Below are positions 10,047-21,803 of a stretch of DNA of 33,175 nt, in pieces. The stretch is from Bacteroidales bacterium. GTDB taxonomy: Bacteria > Bacteroidota > Bacteroidia > Bacteroidales > VadinHA17. The notes beneath the pieces are model-generated. The model was not told the origin of the DNA. It ran no database searches and worked only from the letters and a program-made list of their open reading frames with translations. Position 1 is the first letter of the stretch; every line of letters begins with the position of its first letter. Location of the stretch: NCBI GenBank assembly GCA_023251395.1, contig JAHEYW010000007.1, positions 1-33,175 of the forward strand. Direction: 5' to 3'. The position numbers and the translations under genes are program-made.

Positions 10047-10301
10047 CGACAATTTTTATTTAAAAAGAGAAAATTATATTCTAAAATGTATACCTTTATA
10101 AAAATCTGACGTACTGTTATTTACGAATAAACTTGCAACGTGGGAATATACATTGTTAATAAAATATAATATATGTTAATATTTCCGGTGATGATAAAAC
10201 ACATAGTATTAATAGATTTAATATTTTCGTCTCAATTATAAAAAGATAATTCAAATAACTAAAAAACAATTAAACACAAAAGGTGAAAATTATCATCTGA
10301 T

Positions 10302-11543
10302 ATGAACGCTAACAGTAATGAGGTTATGGCCCTCCACGGCGAGGGCCGCCTCACGGGTTGTTCTTCTGATGAAGAGCCTGGCGCGAAAACCACGATTTTT
10401 TCGCAAAACGAAATCCCAGTTCAGTTAGTTAGCAACCGAAGTTCGGAATTTATTCACCGCTACTTCCCTCTGGCAACTGCAGATTCATGGAATGATTGGA
10501 AATGGCAACTTCGAAATTCAATAACCAATATCGAAGACCTTAAGAAGATCATTAAACTCTCAGATAAAGAAATTCTGGCTATCAATAATCTAAAAGGTCG
10601 TCTTCCGTTAAGGATAACACCCTATTTTGCATCATTGATCTGGAATACAAATTCTTCCCACCCCTTAAGAAGGAATGTTGTTCCTGTCGTTGAGGAACTA
10701 CTTCAAAGTTCAGCCGAACAATCAGATCCGCTTCACGAACATTCTTATTCTCCGGTAAAGGGAATAGTGCACAGATATCCTGACAGGGTTCTGTTTACAG
10801 TAACCCAGGTGTGTTCATCTTATTGCAGGTATTGCACTCGTTCTCATACTGTTGGTAAACTTGATAAACTTGGCAGACAGGATTTTGAAAAAGCTTTCAA
10901 CTATATCCGTAGCCATAAAGAAGTACGTGATGTTCTCATCAGTGGTGGTGATCCATTAACTTTGTCAGATGAAGTACTGGATTATATACTTTCAAATATC
11001 AGAAGCATCGAGCATGTTGAAATGGTAAGGATAGGATCACGCGTTCCTGTTGTTCTCCCTCAGAGAATTACAGACAACCTGATCCAGGTTCTCAGAAAAT
11101 ATCATCCATTATTTATAAGCCTACACTTCTCCCATCCACTTGAAATAACTGATGAATGTGCCCTGGCTTGTACAAAACTTGCAGACGGTGGTATCCCTCT
11201 CGGCAGTCAGACGGTATTACTCAAAGGAATAAATGATAATGTTCCTGTTATGAAGGAACTTATGCATAAGCTCCTGAAGATACGGGTCAGACCATATTAT
11301 CTGTATCAATGTGATCTTATACCAGGTTCAGGGCATTTCAGAACTACTGTCAAAAAAGGTCTTGAAATTATTAAAGGGTTGAGAGGTTTTACAAGTGGTT
11401 ATGCAGTTCCTACTTTCGTTGTTGATGCTCCCGGAGGTGGCGGAAAAATCCCTCTCCTTCCGGACTACGTGGTAGAGCATAATGATGAGAAAATAGTCCT
11501 GCGCAACTATAAGGGAGTAATATGCGAATACCCTGAGAAATAA
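10302..11543 (+). CDS. kamA: KamA-family radical SAM protein, probable lysine 2,3-aminomutase
   Basis: 413 aa; radical SAM motif 'CSSYCRYCTRSHTVG'; 'RPYYLYQCDLIPGSGHFRT' and 'PTFVVDAPGGGGKIPLLPDYVV' match the lysine 2,3-aminomutase PLP/lysine-binding regions, with both recognition aspartates present. Confidence 0.88.
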   Translation: MNANSNEVMALHGEGRLTGCSSDEEPGAKTTIFSQNEIPVQLVSNRSSEFIHRYFPLATADSWNDWKWQLRNSITNIEDLKKIIKLSDKEILAINNLKGRLPLRITPYFASLIWNTNSSHPLRRNVVPVVEELLQSSAEQSDPLHEHSYSPVKGIVHRYPDRVLFTVTQVCSSYCRYCTRSHTVGKLDKLGRQDFEKAFNYIRSHKEVRDVLISGGDPLTLSDEVLDYILSNIRSIEHVEMVRIGSRVPVVLPQRITDNLIQVLRKYHPLFISLHFSHPLEITDECALACTKLADGGIPLGSQTVLLKGINDNVPVMKELMHKLLKIRVRPYYLYQCDLIPGSGHFRTTVKKGLEIIKGLRGFTSGYAVPTFVVDAPGGGGKIPLLPDYVVEHNDEKIVLRNYKGVICEYPEK

Positions 11544-11550
11544 AATCCAG

Positions 11551-12519
11551 ATGAAAATTGGTTTGACATACGACCTTCGGTCATGGTACATCGACCGCGG
11601 ATATTCTATGGAAGATACTGCTGAATTCGACAAACAGGAAACCGTAGATGCTCTTGGAGATTCTCTGCGGAAAATGGGTTACGAGACTGAAATGATTGGC
11701 AACGCATTCCAGTTAATCGAAAGCCTCGTTAATGGTAAAAAATGGGATCTGGTTTTTAATATCGCTGAAGGGTTATATGGTGATGGCAGGGAATCAGTAA
11801 TTCCTGCTATTCTTGACCAGTACAAGATTCCATACGTTTTCAGCGGACCAGTAATAATGGGACTTTCACTGAACAAGCATCTGACTAAAGTAATTGTCGG
11901 AGCTGCAGGTGTTCCTGTTAGTCCCGGATTCCTTGTTTCAAAAATTGAGGATCTGGATAATTGCAAACTCGAATATCCTTTATTCGTAAAACCTGTCTCA
12001 GAAGGAACCGGAAAAGGTATAACAGAAAAGAGCCTGGTCCGTTCACATACAGAACTTAAAAAGATGGTTGAATGGATACTTGAAAGATTCAATCAGCCTG
12101 CACTCGTTGAAGAATATCTTCCCGGGAGAGAGTTCACAGTAGGAATTACAGGCTCCGGTGAAGAAGCTGTGGCTATCGGAGGCATGGAAGTTATTTGTGC
12201 CAATAACCTCCCATATTCTGTTGAGGTAAAAGAGAATTATGAACAATACTGTCAGTATAAACCTCTGGATAAGGAAATAGAAGGAGAATGTAAAAAAGCT
12301 GCACTGGATGCGTGGAAGGCATTATCAGCAGTTGATGCAGGAAGGGTTGATCTGAAAGCTAACAGAAATGGAAGGATATGTTTCATTGAGGCAAATCCAC
12401 TTGCAGGTTTAAATCCAATACATTCTGATCTGCCAATACTGGCCAGACTGTATGGGATCGATTACCAGACCCTGATGGAATCGATAATGAGATCTGCAAT
12501 TAAACGGCATAATTTATAA
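11551..12519 (+). CDS. ATP-grasp ligase, D-Ala-D-Ala ligase-like
   Basis: 322 aa; 'DLVFNIAEGLYGDGRESVIPAILDQYKIPYVFSGPVIMGLSLNKHLTK', 'PLFVKPVSEGTGKGI', 'ALVEEYLPGREFTVGI', 'GRICFIEANPLAGL'. Starts 7 nt after the kamA-like stop. Confidence 0.88.
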   Translation: MKIGLTYDLRSWYIDRGYSMEDTAEFDKQETVDALGDSLRKMGYETEMIGNAFQLIESLVNGKKWDLVFNIAEGLYGDGRESVIPAILDQYKIPYVFSGPVIMGLSLNKHLTKVIVGAAGVPVSPGFLVSKIEDLDNCKLEYPLFVKPVSEGTGKGITEKSLVRSHTELKKMVEWILERFNQPALVEEYLPGREFTVGITGSGEEAVAIGGMEVICANNLPYSVEVKENYEQYCQYKPLDKEIEGECKKAALDAWKALSAVDAGRVDLKANRNGRICFIEANPLAGLNPIHSDLPILARLYGIDYQTLMESIMRSAIKRHNL

Positions 12520-12593
12520 CTACCAGGGCCATTTAACAGATATTAAATTCATTTTTAAGAAGTCTGTTATAATTTGGTATAAAATATATTATA

Positions 12594-13571
12594 ATGGATA
12601 AGAAAAGGTGTTGTATCATCTATAATCAGCCTGGGAAAGGTGCTTTAGCTGATGAACTTGATGTTCTGGAACAGGTTGAATTCGTTGAACAACACCTTAT
12701 TGAACTTGGGATTGATGTCATAAGGAATGGCATAACCAGCTCCTTTATGAAAGAGGTGGAGGAACTTAAAAATGAAAAACCTGATTTTGTTTTTAATCTT
12801 GTTGAATCGATAGACAACAAAGGCGAACTTAACTATTTTGTTCCCGCATTATTGAATCTACACCGCATACCATATTCAGGTAATCCTCTTGAAGCAATAT
12901 TCACAACGACAAGTAAAATTCTGACTTACAAAATATTAGTTGCCTCAGGTATTGATAATCCACAATCCTTTCTTCCATCCCAGCAACATCTGCTGATACC
13001 AGGTAAAAAATATATCGTCAAACCTATCTGGGAAGACGGCTCCCTTGGCATAACCGGGGATTCAGTATTTCTATACAATACTGGCGATATCCGTGACAGA
13101 CTTCTGGCTCTTGATGACACCCATTGGTTCATCCAGAATTATATTGACGGAAGGGAGTTCAACATAAGCGTTCTTGCAGGGAAAAATGGCCCACAAACCA
13201 TGCCTCCGGCAGAGATTCTATTTAACAATTTTACCGGGGATAAACCTAAGATTGTTGATTTTAAAGCAAAATGGGAAATGGAGGCATTTGAATATGTAAA
13301 TACTCCAAGAGATTTTCCAGGAGATGCTCTTGATCCGGTTCTTAAAGAAAAACTTTTATCGATAGCATTGAGGTGCTGGGATATATTCGGACTTAAGGGT
13401 TATGCAAGGGTTGATTTGCGAACCGACGAAAACAATATTCCATATGTAATCGAAATAAATGCCAATCCATGCATTGCTCCGGAAAGTGGGTTCGTTGCAG
13501 CTACAAAACAGGCTGGACTGGATTTCCATGAGGTCCTGACAAGGATAATTGCTGATCTCAACAATTTGTAA
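12594..13571 (+). CDS. Second ATP-grasp ligase, D-Ala-D-Ala ligase-like
   Basis: 325 aa; 'PDFVFNLVESIDNKGELNYFVPALLNLHRIPYSGNPLEAIFTTTSKILTYKIL', 'KYIVKPIWEDGSLGI', 'WFIQNYIDGREFNISV', 'PYVIEINANPCIAPESGF'. Confidence 0.87.
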   Translation: MDKKRCCIIYNQPGKGALADELDVLEQVEFVEQHLIELGIDVIRNGITSSFMKEVEELKNEKPDFVFNLVESIDNKGELNYFVPALLNLHRIPYSGNPLEAIFTTTSKILTYKILVASGIDNPQSFLPSQQHLLIPGKKYIVKPIWEDGSLGITGDSVFLYNTGDIRDRLLALDDTHWFIQNYIDGREFNISVLAGKNGPQTMPPAEILFNNFTGDKPKIVDFKAKWEMEAFEYVNTPRDFPGDALDPVLKEKLLSIALRCWDIFGLKGYARVDLRTDENNIPYVIEINANPCIAPESGFVAATKQAGLDFHEVLTRIIADLNNL

Positions 13572-14743: not shown

Positions 14744-15358
14744 ATGAAAAAAATTATCCTCATTTTATTCCTGACAATCTTTGGGATCATTGCATATTCT
14801 CAAGTTCCACAAGGATTCAATTACCAGGCTATCGCCAGAAACAGTCAGGGTAATCCTATAACCAATACTACAATAAAGGTAAAGCTTTCTATTTTAACCG
14901 ATACAACAGGCTTCTACTTATCAGGCACAGGGACCTACCTGTGGGAAGAAGAGCATACCGGGATTACTACCAACTCATTTGGCTTATTCACTGTCGTTGT
15001 CTGAAATCCACTAGCATCTAAAACACAGGGTACTGCTGCATCTTTCAGTGTCATAGACTGGTCACAAAGCCCATTATATATCGGAGTCAAGGTGGCAAAT
15101 CCAACTGATTATAAGAACATGGGGGCAGCCAGGTTATGGTCTGTACCATATTCTAGGGTAACTGCCTAAGCAAGTAATTCTACCACAGTGAGCACTGTTG
15201 ACTCAGCCTCACAAATATTGTGGTATCCAAATAAGCAGGCATTCCTTGCAGGGAGAATAAGCATCTTAGTTGCCGATAGTGTAGGGACAAACTCGACTGC
15301 CCTTGGATTTAAATCCAGAGCAATTGGAAACTACTTACAGGCATTATTCGAAAAATGA
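14744..15358 (+). pseudogene. Decayed surface-fibre/adhesin paralog of the 15600..21803 gene
   Basis: N-terminus 'SQVPQGFNYQAIARNSQGNPITNTTIKVKLSILTDTTGFYLSGTGTYLWEEEHTGITTNSFGLFTVVV' is closely similar to the downstream gene. Homology continues in frame through TGA (15002) and TAA (15167): NPLASKTQGTAASFSVIDWSQSPLYIGVKVANPTDYKNMGAARLWSVPYSRVTA*..., ending in a YadA-head-like 'NSTALGFKSRAIGNYLQAL'. Confidence 0.85.
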
Positions 15359-15599: not shown

Positions 15600-18500
15600 A
15601 TGAAAACACTTATTCTGTTTTTGATGATAGCTTCTGCTGGAGTATCTGTCTGGTCGCAGGTTCCACAGGGTTTCAATTACCAGGCAATAGCCCGGGATGC
15701 CTCAGGTAATCCTATTGCAAATGCCACAATTAAAGTAAAGCTTTCAATCCTGACTGACACGACAGGGTTTTATGCGTCTGGCGGAGGCACTTACATTTGG
15801 GAAGAAGAACAAACCAATGTAAAGACAAATGCATTTGGCCTCTTCACTATTGTCCTTGGTAATCCTTCAGCTACAAAAACTCAGGGATCAGCAACAAGTT
15901 TCAGCACAATCGACTGGAATGCAGCAACCCTGTATATCGGAACCAAAATTGCCAACCCAACTGATTATAAATATCTTGGAGGAGCGAAACTCTGGACTGT
16001 CCCATATTCAATGATAGCTGCCAAAGCTAACCAGGCAACAAACGCAACTAATGCATCTTATGCTACAAGTGCCGGGTCTGCAGCAAGTGCCACCAGTGCT
16101 ACCAACGCTGATTATGCAACTACCGCAGGATCTGCAACTTCTGCAACAACAGCAACTACCGCAACTACAGTAACCAATGGAGTATATACTACTGGTTCAT
16201 ATGCAAATCCCACCTGGATCTCCTCTCTGGCAGGGGCAAAAATAACAGGTACAGTACCCAGTGCAACAAGTGCCGGGACTGTGACAAATTGGGTATATAC
16301 CAATGGAACATATGCAGATCCTTCATGGATCACCTCACTTGCAGGAACAAAGATATCAGGTACTGTAAATAACGCTACCAATGCTACAAATGCTACGAAT
16401 GCTACGAATGCCACTACCGTGACAAATGGAGTATACACAAATGGAGTATATGCAGATCCTGCATGGATTACCTCCCTTGCAGGAACAAAGATATCAGGTA
16501 CTGTAAATAACGCTACCAATGCTACAAATGCTACGAATGCCACTACAGTTACAAATGGAGTATATTCTACCGGAGCATATGCAGATCCTACATGGATCAC
16601 TTACCTGGCTGGTACAAAAATTACAGGTACAGTTGCAAATGCAACAAATGCTTCTAATGCTACGACTGTTACAAACGGAGTATACACAACCGGTCTATAT
16701 ACTAATCCGACATGGATCAACTCCCTGGCGGGTTCAAAAATAACTGGAGCTGTTGCCAGCGTAACTAATGGTGTTTATACAACCGGCGCTTACGCCGATC
16801 CAGCTTGGATCACTTCCCTTGCTGGCAGCAAGATCACTGGTTCTGTTGCCAATGCAACTAATGCTGCAAATGCAACCCTTGCAGCTAATGCCACAAACGC
16901 TGATCATGCATTATTAGCCGATAGCGCCAAAGGTATTCAGAGAGGGTCAAAACTAACGGTCAGGGAAAGCACAACGGGAACATCGGATGCACTTTTTGAA
17001 GTAAAAAGGAAAGATGGACAGACTGTATTTGCTGTTTACCCTGATGCAGTAAATGTTTATATTCCACAAACTGCAAAAGGAACAAAGGGAGGATTTGCAA
17101 TTGGTGGTTTTGACGGGGCAAAAGCATCCCCACAGGATTATTTAAGGGTAACAGCAGATAGTGTCAGGATATATATTGATAAAACTCCGGAAAATTTAAA
17201 AGGTTCTACAAAAGGAGGTTTTGCAATCGGTGGCTTTGATGAATCTAAAGGAACTGTACAGGATCTATTAACAGTAAGTAATGACAGCATCAGAATGTAT
17301 ATTGATAAAAATCCTGCCCCCGGAAAAGGATCAACAAAGGGAGGATTTGCAATCGGGGAATTTGGTACTGCAAAAGCAGGTACATCTTTTTATATGAATA
17401 TGTCACCTGATAACTATTTTATAGGTGAAGGAAGCGGAAAGAATACAACGACTGGTCTTTATAACTCATTCATCGGATTTGAATCGGGAATTAGTAATAC
17501 TACAGGTGGAAATAATGCCTTTTTTGGATATCAGTCGGGTGATAAAAACATAACCGGGGATAACAACCTCTTTCTCGGGTATCAGAGCGGTTATTCAAAC
17601 ACGGCAGGAAGCCTTAACTCCTTTATTGGATATAAGGCAGGATACGCAAATACAACCGGAGCCCGCAATTCCTTTCTCGGTAGCTATACTGGAATAAATA
17701 ATATTTCCGGTTATGATAACACTTTCATCGGTTATGAAACAGGGAATTTAAATATATCCGGCTGGGAAAACACTTTTATAGGATCAAGGGCAGGATTTTC
17801 TAATACAACAGGAACAAACAACGTTTTTATTGGTACTACATCTGGCTATACCAATAATGTCGGGAATTACAATATACTTCTGGGTTACAGAGCCGGATAT
17901 AATAACCTTGGTGGAAATAATAACATTTTTCTCGGATATTTATCCGGATCATCGAACAATACCGGATCTTCAAATGTATTTCTGGGATCAAACTCAGGGG
18001 CAAGCAATACCACTGGCTATTATAACATATATATTGGAGAACAGGCCGGTTATTACAACACAAGCGCTGCTTATAATACTTATATAGGTTATAATACTGG
18101 AAAGGGTGCATCAGGTTCTACGGGGTATTTTAATGCATTCCTCGGATATGTTTCAGGCTTTTCGATAACATCAGGATATTCCAACGTATTTGTGGGACCC
18201 CGGACAGGGTATAAAAATACAACCGGTTATAGTAATGTCTTCATTGGCGACCAGTCTGGTTACAATAATATTAATGGAGCAAGTAACGTATTTATTGGAG
18301 ACCAGGTAGGATGGACTAATGGATCTGGAAATACTAATGTATTTATAGGCAATGAGGCAGGTTTTTCAAATAGCTCAGGTTATTCCAATATTTACATAGG
18401 TAACCTCGCAGGCAGGCAGAATTCAACAGGTTTCTATAACGTTTCGCTCGGATATTCTGCCGGATACACCTCAGCAGCATCCTATAATACTTTTCTGGGG

Positions 18501-21500
18501 TATTCCAGCGGATACTCAAACCTCGGGGGCAATTATAATACTTTTGTAGGGTTTCAGTCAGGTCTTTCAAATTCAAGCGGATCATCCAATGTATTCCTCG
18601 GACCCAGTTCAGGATACAGCAACACAACCGGTGGAAGCAATATCTTTATGGGTGATCAGGCTGGATATTTTAACAGCACTGCTTCATTCAATACATATAT
18701 TGGATACTATACCGGGAAAGGAGTTGGTACTGGTTATACCGGAAATTCAAACACCTTTCTGGGTTATAAATCAGGATTTGGTATAACAAATGGCAATTCC
18801 AATGTCTTTATTGGCCCAAATTCCGGGTTCTCAAACACCACCGGAACCAGTAATGTATTCATTGGAGATCAGGCGGGTAACATAAACAACGGAAACTATA
18901 ATGTTTTCATGGGTTTCCAGGCAGGCAGGTTAAATAATGACGGTCTGAACAATGTTTACATCGGCAACCGTGCAGGTGAATCTAACGTCTCAGGCGATAA
19001 TAATATCTATCTTGGCTACTTTGCCGGTAATGCCGGGACGAGTGGCGATTTCAACATTTTTATTGGTCCTTCCACTGCCTCTGTTGCTACTTCACCCGGG
19101 CTTTATAATGCATTTATTGGCTTTGAATCCGGGAAAAACAATACCGGTTCCAGCAATGTTTTCTTAGGTTATAAAACTGGCAATAATAATACCAGCGGTG
19201 CAAGTAATGTCTTTATTGGTGACCAGGCCGGCCTTTTCAATAACACAGCTTCATATAACACTTATATTGGATTTAATACAGGTAAGGGATCGTCAACCAC
19301 ATTTTCTGGAATTTTGAATACGTTTATGGGCTACACTTCAGGATCCTCAATAACCGATGGCAGCTCTAATGTATTTCTGGGATCCAGATCAGGATATTCC
19401 AATACATCCGGTAGCAACAACATTTTCCAGGGTGATTCTACAGGATATTTTAATAACACCGCTTCATATAATACTTACATAGGTTACAGTACCGGAAGGG
19501 GGACTTCAACTTCCTCCACAGGAAACTTAAATACTTTTCTGGGTTTCAGGTCAGGTCATAAAATTGCAAATGGATCATCAAATGTATTTATTGGACCAAA
19601 TTCAGGTTATGCAAACACAGGCGGAAGCAGCAATGTCTTTATAGGTGATCAGGCTGGGGCTAATAATTTAAGTGCCAGTTTTAACGTTTTTATGGGTTAT
19701 CTCGCAGGTAAGGCAAATTCGACCGGAACTAATAATTTATTCCTTGGCAACAGGGCAGGCGAACTGAATACCAGCGGAAACAACAATGTATATCTTGGAT
19801 ACCTGGCAGGCAATGCAGGTACGAACGGTACTTATAATGTATTTATCGGACCATCCGTTGCAGTTTCAACAACCGCTCCTGGTTCCTTCAATGCCTTCAT
19901 AGGATATAGTGCCGGTAGACTTAATACCGGTAATTATAATACATTCTTCGGATACACTTCGGGCTATAGCAATTCTTCAGGATCATCAAATGTTTTCATC
20001 GGACCAAACTCTGGCTACACAAATTCAACAGGAAGCTACAATGTTTTCATGGGTTATCAGACCGGAAAGCTGAATTTAACCGGAATAAATAATCTTTACC
20101 TCGGCAACCAGGCAGGTGAATCGAATTCTACGGGAAGCAACAATGTTTACCTTGGTTACCTGGCTGGCAATGCCGGCACAAGCGGTGACTATGATATCTT
20201 TATCGGATCGTCTGCAGCTTCTCTCGCAGCTTCGCCAGGGTCATATAATGCATTTATAGGTTTTGAATCGGGAAAAAGTAACACTGGTTCCAGTAATATC
20301 TTTCTTGGTTACAAAACAGGAAATACTAACAGTTCCGGAGCAAGCAATATCTTTATTGGCGACCAGGCTGGCTACTCCAATACAACGGCATCCTATAATA
20401 CTTTCATAGGGTATAACGCAGGAAAGACGAATTCGACTGGTACTTCAAATACTTTTCTGGGCAACCAGGCAGGACTCACTAATTCAACAGGTAACTATAA
20501 CGTCTTTATGGGTTATCAATCAGGCAGATTAAATAGTACAGGTGCAAATAACCTCTTTTTGGGAAACCAGGCTGGTGAAAACAATGATATTGGAAATAGC
20601 AATGTTTACCTGGGTTATTTTGCCGGGAATTATGCTACCAGCGGAAATTTTAACATATTCATTGGTCCATCTACGGGTGGTGGCTCAGTTAATCCAGGGT
20701 CGTATAATACATTTATGGGCTACGCATCCGGACTTTTAAATACAGCAAGTTTCAATACTTACCTGGGTTATGCTTCAGGCTTTAGCAATACCTCGGGTTT
20801 CTCAAATGTCTTTTTGGGTCCTAAAACAGGATTCTTAAATACAACCGGTAGTTATAATATTTTTGTTGGAGACTCCGCCGGATATAAGAATACAACAGGC
20901 GCTTCAAATATTTTTATCGGAAATCAGGCAGGACTTAACAGCACTATTGCCGGATACAATGTTATAGTAGGCTATTATGCCGGTAATCAGAATACAGACG
21001 GCAATAGTAATGTTTTTGTAGGAAACCAGGCCGGGGAAGCAAATACAGGTGGTGATTATAATGTTGCACTCGGATATAAGGCCGGGACTTCTTCCTCAAC
21101 AGGAAACTATAATACTTATCTGGGAACCAGTGCTGGTTATAATTCACTCTCTGGCAGCACGAACACCTATGTTGGATATGCAGCTGGATACAGCTCAACA
21201 GGCAGTGATAATGTATTTCTGGGGAATGCGGCAGGATATGCCGAAACAGGATCATCCAAGCTATATATTGATAATTCCAGCACACCTTCCCCGTTAATTT
21301 ATGGTGATTTTGGTTCAAATTACGTTGTTATTAGCGGGAATTCCGGTCAGTATACAAGTTACGGAAAGACTTTTTTTGTAAATGGTGATGCAGGAGGAAT
21401 GAGTGCATTTGCAAATGCAAGCGATGCAAGACTTAAGACAGATATCCATACCGTTGAAAATGCTCTAGATAAGGTCCTTGGATTAAGGGGGATAAATTTC

Positions 21501-21803
21501 AGATGGAAAGATAGCCTTAATCTAAAACATGAAACAAAGCTCGGATTTATTGCCCAGGAAGTAGAGAAGGTCTTACCAGAAGTTGTATCAAAGAGCGGGG
21601 ATACTTATATGATGGAATATGCCCCGGTAACAGCTCTTTTAGTAGAAGCTATGAAAGAACAACAGCTCCATATCAAATCCGTAGAAAATGAAAACCTGAA
21701 TCTTAAATCAACAAATGAAATGCTGACAAAGGATCTGGAGTTGCTGAAATCAAGAATCGAAAAACTTGAAAAATTTATGATCACCAAACAAGAGAATAAA
21801 TAA
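15600..21803 (+). CDS. Giant repeat surface fibre / adhesin-like protein with C-terminal S74-type intramolecular chaperone domain
   Basis: 2067 aa; signal peptide; conserved 'SQVPQGFNYQAIARDASGNPIANATIKVKLSILTD' N-domain; three repeat zones; C-terminal 'NASDARLKTDIHTVENALDKVLGLRGINFRWKDS...KLGFIAQEVEKVLPEVV...YAPVTALLVEAMKEQQ' plus coiled coil. Confidence 0.95.
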   Translation: MKTLILFLMIASAGVSVWSQVPQGFNYQAIARDASGNPIANATIKVKLSILTDTTGFYASGGGTYIWEEEQTNVKTNAFGLFTIVLGNPSATKTQGSATSFSTIDWNAATLYIGTKIANPTDYKYLGGAKLWTVPYSMIAAKANQATNATNASYATSAGSAASATSATNADYATTAGSATSATTATTATTVTNGVYTTGSYANPTWISSLAGAKITGTVPSATSAGTVTNWVYTNGTYADPSWITSLAGTKISGTVNNATNATNATNATNATTVTNGVYTNGVYADPAWITSLAGTKISGTVNNATNATNATNATTVTNGVYSTGAYADPTWITYLAGTKITGTVANATNASNATTVTNGVYTTGLYTNPTWINSLAGSKITGAVASVTNGVYTTGAYADPAWITSLAGSKITGSVANATNAANATLAANATNADHALLADSAKGIQRGSKLTVRESTTGTSDALFEVKRKDGQTVFAVYPDAVNVYIPQTAKGTKGGFAIGGFDGAKASPQDYLRVTADSVRIYIDKTPENLKGSTKGGFAIGGFDESKGTVQDLLTVSNDSIRMYIDKNPAPGKGSTKGGFAIGEFGTAKAGTSFYMNMSPDNYFIGEGSGKNTTTGLYNSFIGFESGISNTTGGNNAFFGYQSGDKNITGDNNLFLGYQSGYSNTAGSLNSFIGYKAGYANTTGARNSFLGSYTGINNISGYDNTFIGYETGNLNISGWENTFIGSRAGFSNTTGTNNVFIGTTSGYTNNVGNYNILLGYRAGYNNLGGNNNIFLGYLSGSSNNTGSSNVFLGSNSGASNTTGYYNIYIGEQAGYYNTSAAYNTYIGYNTGKGASGSTGYFNAFLGYVSGFSITSGYSNVFVGPRTGYKNTTGYSNVFIGDQSGYNNINGASNVFIGDQVGWTNGSGNTNVFIGNEAGFSNSSGYSNIYIGNLAGRQNSTGFYNVSLGYSAGYTSAASYNTFLGYSSGYSNLGGNYNTFVGFQSGLSNSSGSSNVFLGPSSGYSNTTGGSNIFMGDQAGYFNSTASFNTYIGYYTGKGVGTGYTGNSNTFLGYKSGFGITNGNSNVFIGPNSGFSNTTGTSNVFIGDQAGNINNGNYNVFMGFQAGRLNNDGLNNVYIGNRAGESNVSGDNNIYLGYFAGNAGTSGDFNIFIGPSTASVATSPGLYNAFIGFESGKNNTGSSNVFLGYKTGNNNTSGASNVFIGDQAGLFNNTASYNTYIGFNTGKGSSTTFSGILNTFMGYTSGSSITDGSSNVFLGSRSGYSNTSGSNNIFQGDSTGYFNNTASYNTYIGYSTGRGTSTSSTGNLNTFLGFRSGHKIANGSSNVFIGPNSGYANTGGSSNVFIGDQAGANNLSASFNVFMGYLAGKANSTGTNNLFLGNRAGELNTSGNNNVYLGYLAGNAGTNGTYNVFIGPSVAVSTTAPGSFNAFIGYSAGRLNTGNYNTFFGYTSGYSNSSGSSNVFIGPNSGYTNSTGSYNVFMGYQTGKLNLTGINNLYLGNQAGESNSTGSNNVYLGYLAGNAGTSGDYDIFIGSSAASLAASPGSYNAFIGFESGKSNTGSSNIFLGYKTGNTNSSGASNIFIGDQAGYSNTTASYNTFIGYNAGKTNSTGTSNTFLGNQAGLTNSTGNYNVFMGYQSGRLNSTGANNLFLGNQAGENNDIGNSNVYLGYFAGNYATSGNFNIFIGPSTGGGSVNPGSYNTFMGYASGLLNTASFNTYLGYASGFSNTSGFSNVFLGPKTGFLNTTGSYNIFVGDSAGYKNTTGASNIFIGNQAGLNSTIAGYNVIVGYYAGNQNTDGNSNVFVGNQAGEANTGGDYNVALGYKAGTSSSTGNYNTYLGTSAGYNSLSGSTNTYVGYAAGYSSTGSDNVFLGNAAGYAETGSSKLYIDNSSTPSPLIYGDFGSNYVVISGNSGQYTSYGKTFFVNGDAGGMSAFANASDARLKTDIHTVENALDKVLGLRGINFRWKDSLNLKHETKLGFIAQEVEKVLPEVVSKSGDTYMMEYAPVTALLVEAMKEQQLHIKSVENENLNLKSTNEMLTKDLELLKSRIEKLEKFMITKQENK
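16170..16870 (+). repeat. In-frame ~120-140 nt tandem repeats with internal 9-nt minisatellite
   Basis: Repeated '...TTVTNGVYTTGAYADPTWITSLAGTKITGTV-NATNATNAT'; near-identical DNA at ~16341 and ~16479 ('gcaggaacaaagatatcaggtactgtaaataacgctaccaatgctacaaatgctacgaatgc'). Confidence 0.9.
17080..17400 (+). repeat. Three ~126-nt repeats encoding 'KGGFAIGGFD...DSVRIYIDK'
   Basis: KGTKGGFAIGGFDGAKASPQDYLRVTADSVRIYIDKTPENL / KGSTKGGFAIGGFDESKGTVQDLLTVSNDSIRMYIDKNPAPG / KGSTKGGFAIGEFGTAKAG. Confidence 0.88.
17410..21260 (+). repeat. Long solenoid-type repeat array (~14-16 aa unit: N-x-F-[IL]-G-x-x-[AS]-G-x-x-N-x-[ST]-G)
   Basis: Continuous 'SNVFIGDQAGYxNTTGSYNTYIGYNTG' units over ~1280 aa, with larger super-repeats such as 'NNVYLGYLAGNAGTSGDYNIFIGPS-A-S-A--PGSYNAFIGFESGK'. 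Confidence 0.93.

Follow-up and report, generated by a model that had tools for sequence, protein, structure and literature searches.

Results

A KamA-family gene and two ATP-grasp genes lie side by side in a Bacteroidales genome

We analysed a 33,175-nt stretch of DNA, contig JAHEYW010000007.1 of assembly GCA_023251395.1 (the window), from a Bacteroidales bacterium of the VadinHA17 lineage whose genome is 91% complete with 4.7% contamination. The locus of interest comprises a gene of the KamA family, to which lysine 2,3-aminomutases belong, and two genes for ATP-grasp ligases resembling D-alanine-D-alanine ligase (Ddl), here called AG1 and AG2 (Table 1). All three open reading frames (ORFs) are intact, and the KamA stop and the AG1 start are 7 nt apart. 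An earlier sequence-only reading had described a KamA gene followed after 7 nt by two distinct ATP-grasp genes, and the coordinates, the family assignments and an AG1/AG2 identity of 24% all agree with it. It had also placed neither ligase in a mur/dcw context and the usual lysine-fermentation genes nowhere nearby; among the window ORFs examined we likewise saw no mur/dcw, lysine-fermentation or acetyltransferase gene, and a tRNA gene search returned none.

Table 1 Features of the KamA-AG1-AG2 locus, in window coordinates
Feature	Position	Strand	Evidence
Direct repeat TGTTAATA-N12-TGTTAATA, ~150 bp upstream of KamA, probable operator	10154..10181	+	shuffles, loci comparison
TATTTTCG, block resembling a Bacteroidetes-type -7 promoter element	10222..10229	+	conserved over 36 upstream regions
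KamA-family radical S-adenosylmethionine (SAM)/pyridoxal phosphate (PLP) enzyme, probable lysine 2,3-aminomutase, 413 aa	10302..11543	+	TIGR00238, TIGR03820, 2a5h alignment
AG1, Ddl-like ATP-grasp ligase, 322 aa, first lineage	11551..12519	+	PF07478, AlphaFold2, tree
AG2, Ddl-like ATP-grasp ligase, 325 aa, second lineage	12594..13571	+	PF07478, AlphaFold2, tree

The gene set is conserved and has a fourth member

The three genes stay together throughout the Bacteroidales. We counted 44 KamA loci there. In the 38 that extend far enough to hold two further genes the succession is always KamA-AG1-AG2, with a KamA-AG1 gap of 6-12 nt in 37. The triad whose conservation the sequence-only reading had suggested checking is thus a stable arrangement, and it reaches other phyla as well; the adjacency of KamA and AG genes is far beyond chance. 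The set occurs rearranged, fused or scattered in Planctomycetota, Acidobacteriota, Spirochaetota, Chloroflexota and an Altiarchaeales archaeon. Writing GNAT for the acetyltransferase gene described below, the archaeon has the order AG-AG-KamA, an acidobacterium AG1-AG2-GNAT-KamA and a member of the Anaerolineae KamA-AG, and a spirochaete carries KamA-AG as a single fusion protein. Planctomycetota often have KamA-AG1-AG2-GNAT and sometimes AG1-AG2-GNAT-KamA; AG1 and AG2 form one 721-aa protein beside KamA in one of their genomes, and a 666-aa AG-AG protein adjoins KamA in another. Among the regions fetched from other families of the window's own phylum AG1-AG2-GNAT-KamA is usual, and some have a single AG beside KamA.

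The fourth gene encodes a GNAT acetyltransferase, which fills the ~550-nt gap in AG-AG-KamA clusters and belongs to one family across the phyla. Of the 37 Bacteroidales loci long enough to show it, 21 carry it directly 3' of AG2; in 16, the window among these, it is absent from that position. A profile search located it elsewhere in the window's genome (G000:C257:10078-10560, minus strand; E 9.7e-45) and in all 13 genus members, and gave no strong match in 8 other genomes of the order. In 7 of the 13 genus members it still shares a contig with KamA, close by, or adjoins a KamA fragment; in 6, including the window's genome, it lies on a contig other than KamA's. Since the gene directly follows AG2 in relatives and lies elsewhere, but is kept, here, the window shows a derived arrangement in which the GNAT was relocated yet retained. 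The sequence-only reading had proposed a three-gene set with no acetyltransferase nearby. Its triad stands and the absence is real for the window, but the statement does not extend to the genome, and the fourth member of the set had been missed.

Against the AblB model (TIGR03827) the GNAT scored 16.2 bits in the window's genome and 21.9 bits in a relative, the cut-off being 205.1, indicating by profile that it is not AblB. Its nearest solved relative is 2r7h, which the depositors named a putative D-alanine N-acetyltransferase. On contig C257 the relocated GNAT is preceded by a gene (L234 5116-8019) for a 967-aa protein that contains a peptidase M28 domain, and this pair recurs in three relatives.

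KamA and the ligases co-occur even where they are not neighbours

We compared the presence of KamA and AG genes in two panels of genomes, counted by eye from tables and evaluated with a Fisher test that ignores shared ancestry. Of 149 planctomycete genomes, strong KamA (at least 300 bits) was present in 22 of the 24 with strong AG1 (E <= 1e-40) and in 6 of the 125 others (p 8e-19). The 147 genomes of the window's phylum, its own genome left out, gave 25 of 26 with AG2 (E < 1e-20) against 27 of 121 for KamA over the cut-off (p 9e-13). In all three exceptions the AG genes sit where a contig ends, and one of the three retains a recognizable piece of KamA.

Physical linkage is not universal. Several planctomycetes have KamA far from the AG genes (in G265, for instance, at 3.59 and 5.34 Mb of a single contig), and KamA and both AG types occupy separate loci in four genomes from family f27 and one from f14; in the KamA tree the genes sampled from f27 and f14 nest within the AG-linked group. 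Additionally, the planctomycete genomes with which the window groups are the same in the KamA, AG1 and AG2 trees, as expected if the set was inherited or transferred together. Judged from these genomic patterns, a joint function of KamA, AG1, AG2 and the GNAT is well supported.

KamA resembles a lysine 2,3-aminomutase

KamA matches TIGR00238 above the cut-off with 372.9 bits. Its best curated family is AblA (TIGR03820), with a score of 511.0 bits just below the cut-off of 525.4, while it reaches 411.5 bits against the arginine 2,3-aminomutase model (cut-off 600) and 256.4 bits against the EpmB model (TIGR03821; cut-off 369.3). It aligns with clostridial lysine 2,3-aminomutase 2a5h over residues 13-367 of 416 (E 3e-136). 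The cysteines of the radical SAM motif CxxxCxxC (171, 175 and 178) and the PLP lysine Lys382 (GGGGK) occupy invariant alignment columns, and D338 and D375, the pair assigned to the lysine side-chain amine, are nearly invariant. The sequence-only reading had claimed two lysine-type aspartates, in YQC-D-L and FVV-D-APGGGGK; both are present and line up with those of 2a5h, and the pair is found in all 27 AG-linked KamA sequences with both motifs readable. These features suggest that KamA probably makes beta-lysine. We found no second KamA copy over the family cut-off in the window's genome, and a PF09043 (KamD/E) search of that genome gave no match, nor did the control genomes.

AG1 and AG2 keep Ddl catalytic residues and have altered substrate positions

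Both ligases exceed the cut-off of Dala_Dala_lig_C (PF07478), AG1 with 88.2 and AG2 with 62.2 bits, and both fall far under every curated Ddl cut-off; the best D-Ala-D-Ala ligase subfamily model (NF002378, cut-off 243) gives 135 bits for AG1 and 99 for AG2. Their AlphaFold2 models have predicted local distance difference test (pLDDT) values of 90.7 and 91.1, respectively, and the best PDB fold match of each is a Ddl, so that the models support a Ddl fold without indicating a substrate. The canonical Ddl of the window's genome lies on contig C290; the possibility, raised by the sequence-only reading, that one ligase might be the only Ddl in the genome did not materialize. A tree built from 104 ATP-grasp proteins unites the canonical Ddls in one group with full support and leaves AG1 and AG2 outside it, as two separate ancient lineages that each span Bacteroidota, Planctomycetota, Acidobacteriota and an archaeon.

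We then compared individual positions, numbered after E. coli DdlB by means of motifs. All AG1 and AG2 proteins examined retain K144, R255, D257 and N272, and K215 and E270 are almost always kept. Tyr216 occurs in 7/7 Ddl but is replaced in 85/85 proteins of the AG1 and AG2 lineages, by Glu in 16 of 21 window-type AG1 and by Trp in all AG2. At the Leu282 position 21/21 window-type AG1 have Asp, whereas 13/13 window-type AG2 have Gly; AG2 also has Ala or Gly in place of S150. In Ddl, S150, Y216 and L282 contact the amino-acid substrates. Catalytic residues kept and substrate-touching positions changed indicate that ATP-grasp chemistry is retained and that the predicted pockets are new and fixed; this is how the comparison with Ddl pockets advised in the sequence-only reading turned out. 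Because the substrate residues are altered and the canonical Ddl is encoded elsewhere, neither AG1 nor AG2 is, by this comparison, the cell-wall Ddl. The Asp at the Leu282 position of window-type AG1 would suit a positively charged second substrate near the acceptor site.

A further AG1-like gene, 39% identical to AG1 and without KamA, was seen on a 4.3-kb contig of the same assembly (C291; L069 3160-4194). It could be contamination; the composition of the contig does not stand out.

A conserved repeat and a promoter-like block precede KamA

The repeat of TGTTAATA upstream of KamA has one match in the window and none in 100 window shuffles. Of 36 Bacteroidales loci, 27 carry it with its 20-bp period unchanged and 9 have a degenerate form, within surrounding sequence that aligns poorly. 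The Bacteroidetes -7 consensus is TAnnTTTG, and by its likeness to this consensus TATTTTCG would be a promoter element; repeat and block together look like an operator and a promoter. Na+ riboswitches are known on ablA (PMC9337991). A riboswitch upstream of KamA was considered here and rejected: the window has no Rfam match at the gathering score, and the upstream region matches at chance level.

Neighbouring genes and related arrangements

Downstream of the operon the window encodes a 2067-aa protein built of dozens of short glycine- and asparagine-rich repeats (15600-21803), preceded by a short relative (14744-15004). Relatives occur downstream of the operon in other genomes as well.

Variant ligase arrangements were also recorded. 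One Bacteroidales contig has AG1 and AG2 in one open frame (L033 7252-9105), either a fusion or an assembly or deletion artefact. Some genomes with AG1-AG2-GNAT-KamA (L131-L134, L145 and L164) contain a further AG2-like ligase gene in divergent orientation to its neighbour, which encodes a ~280-aa protein weakly matching Peptidase_C39_2 and the N-terminal domain of butirosin BtrH; the two genes are possibly a second module of the same chemistry. In Nitrospina a 469-477-aa protein precedes KamA (L060 4304-5713, L061, L066 4270-5703), and the one scanned, that of L060, has no Pfam match.

On Thioflavicoccus mobilis plasmid pTHIMO01 (L198 2467-7948) an AG gene is placed end to end with KamA. Beside them are sbnA, an ornithine-cyclodeaminase-like gene and one for a diaminobutyrate transaminase, and the neighbourhood includes genes whose annotation is 2,3-diaminopropionate synthesis. 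Such neighbours make a second diamino acid a plausible coupling partner of beta-lysine, as a lead only. On Rhizobium and Sinorhizobium plasmids (L199 4550-7158, L200 5959-8418) KamA adjoins a different ATP-grasp-type gene, annotated as a biotin carboxylase subunit family protein, and this pairing points the same way. A divergent KamA lies ~3 kb from an elongation factor P (EF-P) gene on Leptospira interrogans plasmid p1 (L201 1616-6110).

Discussion

On balance we consider it probable, from the sequence evidence above, that KamA, AG1 and AG2 are three of the four enzymes of a conserved pathway that runs from lysine through beta-lysine and amide coupling to N-acetylation. KamA would shift the 2-amino group of free L-lysine to C3 by radical SAM and PLP chemistry, giving beta-lysine. 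AG1 and AG2, anciently separate and non-redundant, would each activate a carboxylate as an acyl phosphate and form an amide bond, joining beta-lysine to one or two other amino acids, and the GNAT would acetylate an amine, either on beta-lysine itself or on the completed peptide. The expected product is an N-acetylated beta-lysine di- or tripeptide, small and soluble, which may act as a compatible solute or other protective metabolite. Lysine as the true substrate, beta-lysine as the ligase substrate, the order of steps, the acetylation target, the product and its role are all points that we infer.

Several observations weigh against this proposal. KamA lacks the last 49 residues of 2a5h, a C-terminal tail that holds a zinc site, and its activity may therefore differ from that of the clostridial enzyme. 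The assignment of lysine depends on the two aspartates and on the AblA score under the cut-off. The KamA family serves other roles, and the KamA tree includes genes with no AG partner. Finally, the neglect of shared ancestry affects both co-occurrence p-values, and shared genomic fate speaks for joint function, not as proof that beta-lysine is the ligase substrate.

In an alternative with the same logic, the set would make an amide of another beta-amino acid, for example one derived from arginine or ornithine. Arginine 2,3-aminomutase is a relative of KamA, as the 411.5 bits (cut-off 600) indicate, and sequence alone gives no certain substrate. Yet the lysine model scores 100 bits above the arginine model and both lysine-contacting aspartates occur in all 27 readable AG-linked sequences, and we regard this alternative as unlikely.

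Among the closest known pathways is that of AblA and AblB, which leads to N-epsilon-acetyl-beta-lysine in methanogens, green sulfur bacteria and Bacillus and likewise combines a lysine 2,3-aminomutase-family enzyme with a GNAT; its role in osmoadaptation is established (PMC3543383, PMC9337991). KamA and the GNAT might simply make this osmolyte, with the ligases as unrelated neighbours. Among curated families KamA is indeed closest to AblA, the set does include a GNAT, and AblA-AblB neighbour pairs exist in other organisms. In contrast, the GNAT is not AblB by profile (16 and 22 bits against 205), and the AblA-type KamA genes (L246, L247 and L143) form a separate lineage without AG partners, outside which the window's tail-less KamA falls. 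The present set adds two ATP-grasp ligases, which co-occur with KamA even when unlinked and of which one is fused to it in the spirochaete. We therefore judge the osmolyte explanation improbable.

It is very unlikely that AG1 and AG2 modify the cell wall as alternative D-Ala-D-X ligases, in the manner of vancomycin resistance operons, with KamA incidental. Fold and ATP-grasp catalytic residues are common to AG1, AG2 and the Ddl/VanA family, and the best sequence and structure matches are Ddl; against this, the canonical Ddl lies on C290, and Y216 and L282 are consistently replaced, as is S150 in AG2 by Ala or Gly. The ligases, usually paired paralogues with these fixed substrate-side changes, accompany KamA instead of van or mur genes, and an archaeon has the set.

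Hardly any weight falls on an EpmB-like KamA supplying beta-lysine for EF-P modification with the ligases in place of EpmA: although EpmB is a KamA relative and presumably also lacks the clostridial tail, KamA scores 256 bits against the EpmB cut-off of 369, the best EpmA match in the genome (235.5 bits, cut-off 286.9) is a 576-aa frame typical of lysyl-tRNA synthetase, and EF-P needs neither two ligases nor a GNAT. EpmB-like activity, which the sequence-only reading had named as a concern, is accordingly not what the profiles indicate. The EpmB/EpmA (YjeK/PoxA) system resembles the proposed pathway in that a KamA relative makes beta-lysine that is then amide-linked, but EpmA is related to lysyl-tRNA synthetase and acts on a protein.

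Other systems share single elements with the proposed beta-lysine peptide pathway. L-Amino acid ligases such as BL00235 (PDB 3vot) are ATP-grasp enzymes that make dipeptides from free amino acids; AG2 has a weak profile match there (34 bits), whereas within ATP-grasp AG1 and AG2 fall in the Ddl branch. The N-acetylglutaminylglutamine amide (NAGGN) osmolyte pathway uses an acetyltransferase and an ATP-grasp ligase to produce an acetylated dipeptide, by the same logic as the present set, but has no KamA, a different ligase and an amidotransferase. In streptothricin and tuberactinomycin, beta-lysine from a KamA-type enzyme is amide-linked by a nonribosomal peptide synthetase (NRPS); no NRPS genes were seen in the KamA-AG clusters. 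We found no paper on a KamA/ATP-grasp gene set in the open-access literature; subscription journals and preprints lay outside the search, and a prior description is possible. Each enzyme family is known, and the combination appears not to be.

A wider proposal, which we hold tentatively but take seriously, is that the set represents an undescribed and widespread class of N-acetylated beta-lysine peptides made without ribosome or NRPS in several phyla and an archaeon, perhaps as a new compatible solute. Since the set is compact, NRPS-free and recurrent in many lineages, it lends itself to a test in a single heterologous host. The known roles of beta-lysine are those of a precursor of osmolytes, a building block of antibiotics and a modification of EF-P. 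If the pathway is as proposed, it would add a fourth, widespread beta-lysine route that runs through two dedicated amide ligases, would reveal a common metabolite that has been overlooked and would correct the function of many proteins now annotated as D-alanine-D-alanine ligase.

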